NCBI GenBank assembly: GCA_022824405.1
Contig: JAJDZZ010000026.1
Coordinates: forward strand, 124,001-188,000
From: Opitutales bacterium
Lineage (GTDB): Bacteria; Verrucomicrobiota; Verrucomicrobiia; Opitutales; UBA2995
Length of the DNA stretch: 64,000 nucleotides
Direction: 5' to 3'
The translations under genes and the position numbers were made by a program. A model generated the notes under the pieces. It was not told where the DNA came from. It ran no database searches and saw only the letters and a program-made list of their open reading frames with translations. Shown one piece after another: positions 34,171 through 42,197 of the stretch (positions are counted from its first letter, which is position 1; each line of letters opens with the position of its first letter).

Positions 34171-34440
34171 ATGGCGCGTTCTCAAAAAAAAGGCTATTTT
34201 GTCGATCCGAAGTTGATGGACCGGGTGGAGGCTGCACAAAAGGCCAATTCCCGCAAACCCATCAAAACCTGGTCGCGCCGATCGACCATCACGCCGGATT
34301 TCATCGGCCTCACTGTCAGCGTGCACAATGGCCGTGCTTTTCTCCCGCTCTATATCACCGAAAACATGGTGGGCCACAAGCTGGGTGAATTTGCCCCCAC
34401 ACGGACCTTCAGGGGGCACGGTTCTCACACCAAAAAATAA
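34171..34440 (+). CDS. rpsS: 30S ribosomal protein S19
   Basis: 89 residues, the standard length. [23 protein letters not shown] and [17 protein letters not shown] are the diagnostic blocks. S19 forms a complex with S13 in the 30S head. It is followed after 9 bases not by rplV but by a small exported-protein gene. Confidence 0.98.
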
Positions 34441-34449
34441 TCCTTCGCC

Positions 34450-34800
34450 ATGAAAGGGAAATTCGGCTCATCAATGATTTTGGCAACCTGCTTGTTGGGA
34501 GGGATGTTTTTCCCCACTTTGCAAGCGGAGGTCCCGGACCGCCCGGGGGAGTTGGTCATCTGCATTATCGAGCCTGGCGACCTGACCGATTTAATCGGTA
34601 TCAACGGAGGCCTGGAACAAGGGTTGCTCCCCGGCATGGTATTATCCGTTTTCCGCAATGGCCAAAGGGTGGGGGAGTTGCTCCTTACCAGGGTCCAAGA
34701 ACAATGTGCAGTGGCCCTGATCGCCGCTCTCGAACCTAAAAAAACGCTTGCGGTCGGGGATAGGGCCACTCCAAAACTAGGTAAATTCAAACCGATCTGA
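34450..34800 (+). CDS. Small exported protein inserted between rpsS and rplV, unknown
   Basis: 116 residues. A signal peptide is clear: basic MKGKFGSS, hydrophobic core about 9-22, and a predicted cut near LQA-EV (about residue 26). The mature part of about 90 residues is a beta-rich domain with a turn GLEQGLLPGMVLSVFRNGQ, then VGELLLTRVQ and a final KTLAVGDRATP, a pattern seen in small exported domains where a protein avoids or saturates a substrate groove; I cannot name a family. It is in phase with the operon (9 bases after rpsS, 3 before rplV), so it must share the S10 transcript. An exported protein is unexpected in this position. Confidence 0.8.
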   Translation: MKGKFGSSMILATCLLGGMFFPTLQAEVPDRPGELVICIIEPGDLTDLIGINGGLEQGLLPGMVLSVFRNGQRVGELLLTRVQEQCAVALIAALEPKKTLAVGDRATPKLGKFKPI

Positions 34801-34803
34801 CCC

Positions 34804-35139
34804 ATGGAAGTTCAGGCCCTCACCAAATACGTCCGTCTCTCCCCCAAGAAGGCCCGGGAAATTACCCGGGAGATTCAGGGATTGCGCGCCTGGAAAGCCC
34901 AGGAAATACTCCGTTTTATTCCGCGTAAATCTGCCCGGCTGGTGGCAAAGACCTTGCACTCCGCCATAGCCAACGTTGAAAATAACCACAATCGACCGGG
35001 TGAGGATCTGATTGTTTCCAAAGCCGTTATCGAACAGGGACCTACCTTGAAACGTTTTCGTGCCGGAGCCCGCGGCTCGGCCAAACCCATCAAAAAGAGA
35101 ACCAGCCACATTCGCATCGTTTTATCGGATCGAGAATAA
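34804..35139 (+). CDS. rplV: 50S ribosomal protein L22
   Basis: 111 residues, with LSPKKAREITREIQGL at the N-terminus and the tunnel-lining hairpin GPTLKRFRAGARGSAKPIKKRTSHIRIVL intact, the region where macrolide-resistance changes occur in other bacteria. It lies 3 bases after the inserted exported-protein gene. Confidence 0.97.
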   Translation: MEVQALTKYVRLSPKKAREITREIQGLRAWKAQEILRFIPRKSARLVAKTLHSAIANVENNHNRPGEDLIVSKAVIEQGPTLKRFRAGARGSAKPIKKRTSHIRIVLSDRE

Positions 35140-40691: not shown

Positions 40692-42197
40692 ATGCTTTCC
40701 GCTTTCTCCAATAGCTTCAAAATCCCGGATCTCCGCAACAAGCTGTTCTACACCTTGTCCCTCCTGTTTGTGGCGCGCATCGGCGCCAACATCCCCATCC
40801 CGGGAATCAATCCCGCTCCTCTGCAAGAATTTTTTGCCGACCAGACCGCGGCGGGTGGTGGTGGCATGCTCGGGCTCTACAACATGTTTACGGGAGGGGC
40901 CCTTCTGAAAGGAGCGGTATTTGCCCTGGGCATCATGCCCTACATCTCGGCATCGATTATTTTCCAGTTGATGACCGCGGTTGTTCCGAGCCTGGCCCGG
41001 TTGTCCCGTGAAGGGGACGTGGGGCGCCAAAAGATTACCCAATACACGCGGTATGCAACGGTGCTAATCTGCTTGGTGCAGGGAACGCTGATGATAATGG
41101 GTTTGAAAAACCCCCAGAGTCTCTTTTCAGGGTTCGACCAGCGCATTTACAGCCCGATTATCCTGAGCGACAGCCTTTGGTTTTTCTTTAGCGCCGTCAT
41201 CATTTTAACTACCGGCACCATCATCCTGATGTGGTTGGGAGAACAAATTACCCAAAACGGAATCGGGAACGGAGTTTCCCTGTTGATTACGGTGGGCATT
41301 GTGGCCGACCTTCCCGGGGCATTGGCCACCCTCTACCGCCTTGTATTCGCGCCCGTCGGCACTAGTCGGATCGAGGTTCCCCAACTGGCTGTCATGCTGA
41401 TTCTATTGTTGGTCGTGACGGCGGGGCTGGTGGCGGTTATCCAGGCCATGCGGAAAATTCCCGTGCAGTACGCCAAGCGGGTAGTCGGGCGCAAGGTGTA
41501 CGGGGGCCAGACCTCGTTTCTTCCCCTGAAAGTCAATTACTCCGGAGTGATGCCCGTCATCTTTGCCAGCGCCATTCTGCTCTTCCCGCAACAAATTTTT
41601 TCCTACCTGGGAGCCAGTAGTGAGAACCTCAGCTTTTTCAGCAGCATGTCCGCCTGGTTCAACCAGGGAACCCCCAGCTACTATTTCATATTCGGAATGC
41701 TGATCCTGCTTTTCAGCTATTTCTGGGTATCCGTCATGTTCAAGCCCATCCAGATCGCGGATGACCTGAAAAAATACGGAGGTTATATTCCCGGGGTGCG
41801 TCCAGGTGAGCCGACAGCGAAGTTTCTCGATTTCATCATGACCCGCCTGACCTTTGCCGGCGCGGTATTCCTGACCCTGATTGCGGTTTTTCCGGATATT
41901 CTCCTCTTCACCTACAACGTTCCCTTCCAGATTTCCAACTTCTTTGGCGGAACCGGGATGTTGATTACCGTGGGCGTATTGCTGGATCTGCTTCAACGGA
42001 TCGAGACCTATCTGCTGCAACGCCATTACGACGGCTTCATGAAAAAGGGACGTATTCGTGGACGCAGTCCGGCCAGGGCTCGCCGTCAGATTGCTTCCAC
42101 GGGTCAGTTGAAGAATATCGGACCCCTCATGGTGGTATTGGGTGGGATCTTCCTGGTAGGTATCGTTTCCTGGGTACTGCGCTCCTGGGTTCTGTGA
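40692..42197 (+). CDS. secY: Preprotein translocase subunit SecY
   Basis: 501 residues, about 60 longer than E. coli SecY. Ten TM spans can be traced, starting FKIPDLRNKLFYTLSLLFVARIGANIPIPGIN. The cytoplasmic ribosome/SecA-binding loops include RKIPVQYAKRVVGRKVYGGQ and YGGYIPGVRPGEPTAKFLD. The extra length lies in the first periplasmic loop and in the C-terminal tail. map follows after 3 bases. Confidence 0.98.
   Translation: MLSAFSNSFKIPDLRNKLFYTLSLLFVARIGANIPIPGINPAPLQEFFADQTAAGGGGMLGLYNMFTGGALLKGAVFALGIMPYISASIIFQLMTAVVPSLARLSREGDVGRQKITQYTRYATVLICLVQGTLMIMGLKNPQSLFSGFDQRIYSPIILSDSLWFFFSAVIILTTGTIILMWLGEQITQNGIGNGVSLLITVGIVADLPGALATLYRLVFAPVGTSRIEVPQLAVMLILLLVVTAGLVAVIQAMRKIPVQYAKRVVGRKVYGGQTSFLPLKVNYSGVMPVIFASAILLFPQQIFSYLGASSENLSFFSSMSAWFNQGTPSYYFIFGMLILLFSYFWVSVMFKPIQIADDLKKYGGYIPGVRPGEPTAKFLDFIMTRLTFAGAVFLTLIAVFPDILLFTYNVPFQISNFFGGTGMLITVGVLLDLLQRIETYLLQRHYDGFMKKGRIRGRSPARARRQIASTGQLKNIGPLMVVLGGIFLVGIVSWVLRSWVL

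Follow-up and report, generated by a model that had tools for sequence, protein, structure and literature searches.

An exported small-barrel protein encoded beside rplV in the S10 operon across a bacterial phylum

The S10 operon is among the most conserved gene clusters of bacteria, and in the stretch of Opitutales DNA analysed here (64,000 nucleotides, hereafter the window) it carries an additional gene, X, for an exported protein; X represents a barrel family of the envelope that is new and occupies an unusual place across the phylum. Of the 120 genomes surveyed in the phylum, 71 have an X orthologue as the gene immediately before rplV, and they come from 31 of 50 families, these proportions being rough because the sample was non-random, with some genomes picked for hits and some f13 genomes for lacking them. 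From its own tree and that of neighbouring ribosomal proteins, X appears to be ancestral to the phylum and to have stood next to rplV since the phylum's common ancestor. We know of no other bacteria in which an envelope scaffold, as X is proposed to be, is made from the ribosomal S10 operon. Searches of the non-subscription literature found no paper describing an exported protein in this operon, nor did they find the X gene in work on insertions into the S10 operon, on the essential genes of Akkermansia or on the outer-membrane proteome.

The X reading frame (Table 1) runs from an ATG start to a TGA stop, 9 bases after the end of rpsS and 3 bases before rplV. A first-pass annotation had described a 116-residue protein with a signal peptide at just these spacings, and both the open reading frame and the letters confirm it. 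The S10 cluster around X is otherwise ordinary, with secY downstream on the same strand (40692-42197). A site scan detected no promoter-like or terminator-like sites on the X strand between rpsS and rplV, either inside X or just before it; the lack of a terminator-like site, together with the two short gaps, was counted in favour of co-transcription of X with rpsS and rplV. An antisense open reading frame of 126 amino acids (34425-34805, minus strand) covers X nearly exactly; no support for it was found, and it is probably a by-product of base composition.

Table 1 Features of the X locus, in positions of the window
Feature	Position	Strand	Basis
X, encoding an exported protein of 116 aa with a signal sequence and a small beta-barrel	34450..34800	+	Open reading frame, slot orthologues, dN/dS 0.187
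X signal sequence (residues 1-26; probable cleavage after LQA)	34450..34527	+	Read from sequence; hydrophobic N-terminus in nearly every orthologue
X C-terminal small six-strand beta-barrel (predicted), about residues 31-112	34540..34785	+	AlphaFold2 pLDDT 90-97 over most of it; FlgT Z 10.4
rpsS (S19), upstream neighbour of X	34171..34440	+	Precedes X in unbroken operons
rplV (L22), next gene after X and its conserved linkage partner	34804..35139	+	X retained ahead of rplV where rpsS lies apart

Judged by comparison of sequences, X is preserved far beyond what chance would allow. Searching 88 related genomes with X as a single protein yielded matches in 38, and at all 30 of the loci kept from this first search, which span nine families, the gene lay between rpsS and rplV (the slot), its frame open, and encoded the domain of the window's X behind a hydrophobic N-terminal stretch. 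Against the closest sister locus (L031, Opitutia bacterium isolate 287ce), the dN/dS of 0.187 indicates that X is under purifying selection; in the same comparison rpsS had a similar value (0.190) and rplV a lower one (0.043). Within the window's order, identity to the window protein falls as low as 23-28%, so that the shared location is no relic of recent ancestry, and the frame remains intact over phylum-level divergence. The annotation had named absence from relatives combined with frame disruption as the outcome that would speak against it; instead, orthologues are widespread and the frame is kept. As a sign of high expression, codon bias was uninformative (0.67 for X, 0.65-0.79 for the ribosomal genes and a mean of 0.72 for other genes).

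The export signal, read by eye from the letters and the hydropathy, consists of an n-region (MKGK) and a hydrophobic stretch at about residues 9-24, and this segment has low pLDDT in the AlphaFold2 model. Cleavage likely follows L-Q-A26 and would leave a mature part of about 90 residues, in agreement with the annotation's estimate. The remainder was modelled from 59 slot proteins as a six-strand barrel (pLDDT ~95; strands at residues 35-41, 48-51, 64-69, 72-82, 87-94 and 105-108). In the window's order X comprises the signal and the barrel only, whereas outside it the protein is mostly longer, with a signal or anchor, a coiled coil whose length varies (in the window's class it spans about 100 residues) and the same barrel. 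The AlphaFold2 model of one long form, L066, has the signal, long helices at residues 30-79, 85-121 and 127-144, and the same barrel as X; an hhalign comparison of the short with the long slot family shows them to be homologous (Prob 99, E 4e-18). Conservation is seen at G54, G58, G62, M63, G103 and D104; these residues look structural and no catalytic set is apparent, which makes a binding role likelier than an enzymatic one.

The annotation could give the mature domain no name. This holds as far as curated families go, since Pfam and NCBIfam scans found nothing for X alone and no family covering X and its relatives, and a PDB sequence search with profile A1 returned nothing credible; homologues were nonetheless recovered by profile, and a fold could be assigned. 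The best PDB matches of the modelled barrel (VIA-align) were to the C-terminal domain of FlgT (FlgT_C, PF16538), at Z 10.4 over 83 residues (3w1e) and Z 10.3 (8z5n), followed by a tie between the N-terminal barrels of F1-type ATPases (~9.2) and MreC (9.1). Small barrels are a common fold, as the F1-ATPase value (Z ~9) illustrates, and hence the predicted fold of X is no proof of its function. As X is predicted to be, FlgT is exported and on the envelope side, and 4 of the 15 long-form members show weak FlgT_C Pfam matches, the best at E 0.003. X itself, however, has no such match at E<=10, shares 16% identity and, at 116 residues, lacks the other FlgT domains. A flagellar role was rejected, the window genome having no match for FlgH of the flagellar L-ring. 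The long form also matched TsaP of the type IV pilus machine in Foldseek (3jc8_Ta, E 1.2e-2); X differs in its mature length of about 90 residues and in the absence of LysM from Pfam scans. A secretin link was likewise rejected, as secretins occur both in genomes that have X and in genomes that lack it.

The resemblance to MreC raises the alternative that X is a divergent cell-shape protein acting with the MreBCD elongation machinery. The long form has the architecture of MreC (PF04085), namely an N-terminal membrane segment, a coiled coil and a barrel; MreC structures are among the top Foldseek matches, with a barrel Z of 9.1 to 7eft; profile A2 hit an MreC chain, 9dvb_C, with E 2.7e-5, the coil contributing part of the match; and some X members have weak NCBIfam MreC matches. 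Against this, hhalign comparison of X families with MreC of the same phylum gave Prob 3.4 and 0.9, and PF04085 neither matched X nor figured in the family listings of the A1 and A3 members. MreC has two barrels, and the X models show one six-strand barrel. The window genome has a separate MreC gene by Pfam, as do other genomes with and without X, for which reason co-occurrence of MreC with X was rejected; moreover, G111 carries X upstream of rplV and has no MreC match. We therefore consider an MreC-like role improbable. As modelled, X has a FlgT-C / MreC-like small-barrel fold and, by the tests made, is a member of neither family. Among the genomes tested, G111 and G183 (f29, g69) stand apart in having no Pfam match to MreC.

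Looking for the gene between rpsS and rplV in relatives, as the annotation had proposed, revealed how widely the arrangement extends. Profile A1 matched in 162 of 388 genomes of the phylum, and comparison of the match positions with those of rpsS suggested that many adjoin it. The region 3' of rpsS was then read in 80 genomes for gene content irrespective of similarity. In 14 of the 20 genomes sampled from the window's class, a gene of about 235-290 codons lies between rpsS and rplV and encodes a protein in which a signal sequence and a coiled coil precede the C-terminal domain shared with X; in other classes, X is upstream of rplV in 15 of 39 genomes. The phylum-wide count of 71 comprises 69 genomes assigned by an automatic rule plus G319 and G351, in which 130 and 171 bases separate X from rplV; the distance ranges from about 3 to 171 bases. 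Where X is lacking, rpsS-rplV gaps of 7-180 bases remain and the operon is without visible damage. At L058 and L061 (f32, 0.9-Mb genomes) and L071 (f36), gaps of 148, 313 and 552 bases hold no clear X frame and are possibly decayed remnants of the gene.

On a species tree built from S19, L22 and S3 of 119 genomes with a midpoint root, the presence of X requires 11 changes, whereas shuffled labels require 38 on average and never fewer than 29; the root state is present. The largest X-lacking group, of 13 families, forms a weakly supported clade, and X is also missing from most sampled f13 genomes. In a tree of the barrel domain, coarse because it rests on about 84 columns, slot copies form one clade against the non-slot paralogues with support 99/97 (80 rows), or 97/94 when homologues from X-lacking genomes are included (88 rows), and the slot part broadly tracks the species groups. 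This history is consistent with a single origin, vertical descent and about ten losses, and the losses imply that X is not essential everywhere. The annotation had also entertained a lineage-specific insertion, and on such a reading the gene would be of no general importance; no point in its favour was left after the survey, and a single phylum-wide clade linked to rplV, inferred to be ancestral and lost about ten times, contradicts it. We regard this explanation as scarcely credible.

The window's X falls within the rplV-linked family as we define it here, with an export signal, the barrel, a place directly upstream of rplV and membership of the slot clade. Related proteins of the same phylum (L138, L140-L145, L158-L164) share the X-type barrel, a membrane segment and a coiled coil; unlike X, they are not linked to rplV and are separate from the slot clade. 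Some of these membrane-anchored coiled-coil proteins are encoded in tandem pairs outside the ribosomal operon (L138:268-2012, L140:124-2028 and L162). No relocated X orthologue was seen in X-lacking genomes; the homologues found elsewhere in them fall outside the slot clade and are paralogues by the tree, and relocation was accordingly rejected.

The linkage to rplV also survives disruption of the operon. Several families of the phylum have an S10 cluster that is split directly after rpsS, and X then lies just upstream of rplV, heading the rplV-rpsC part. These breaks fall at L079/L124, L080/L113, L082/L114, L095/L116, L100/L122, L103/L120, L105/L117, L109/L115, L086/L112 and L156, with X beside rplV at the locus named second in each pair and at L156. 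X is thus linked to rplV and not to rpsS, and its place beside rplV throughout the phylum, even in broken clusters, strongly hints at selection on location. It might be argued that X is simply a useful envelope protein that was inserted once, in the phylum's ancestor, and has since stayed in the operon because moving is rare, its place there having no regulatory meaning. Such a history would agree with the single clade and vertical inheritance, and with repeated loss leaving gaps but no visible damage to the operon. Yet it sits less easily with the retention of X beside rplV through operon breaks in several families, and with the lack of any relocated slot-clade orthologue among the X-lacking genomes. 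We view this account, the chief alternative to our own, as somewhat doubtful.

Our own reading, on which we are evenly balanced, is that X is a periplasmic scaffold or adaptor co-transcribed with ribosomal proteins, its supply following the growth rate. The signal sequence would export X across the inner membrane via Sec; the coil, where present, would oligomerise and provide spacing or reach; and the barrel would bind another envelope component. Transcribed together with rpsS and rplV, X would rise and fall in supply with ribosome synthesis, and part of the envelope would thereby be kept in step with growth rate. The annotation had suggested a link between ribosome synthesis and the envelope, and two of its foundations stand, namely the exported protein in the S10 operon and an ancient linkage to rplV that is kept after breakage; the tie itself we infer from them. 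That it amounts to a coupling across the phylum, in which an envelope scaffold is made from the S10 operon and envelope assembly is set by ribosome synthesis, is a more tentative proposal that we rate as rather unlikely.

A regulatory role of another kind would be that of a SecM-like secretion monitor, in which translation of X senses Sec activity and tunes rplV, or the operon including secY. Like monitors of this type, X is a short exported protein encoded upstream of a gene that could be regulated, here at a 3-base gap that might permit coupling, and secY follows downstream on the same strand. X differs from them, however, in that its conserved part is a folded barrel and not the C-terminal tail, which varies among X proteins and is not strongly conserved in A1 or A2, in that no known arrest motif is visible, and in that its distance to rplV is variable. 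A secretion monitor is thus a very improbable explanation.

Under the reading that we prefer, of an envelope scaffold or adaptor supplied with the ribosomal proteins, production of the cell envelope and of ribosomes may be tied at the X locus. As a defined gene, X lends itself to tests of how growth of the envelope keeps pace with ribosome supply, and it is a possible marker of the phylum.
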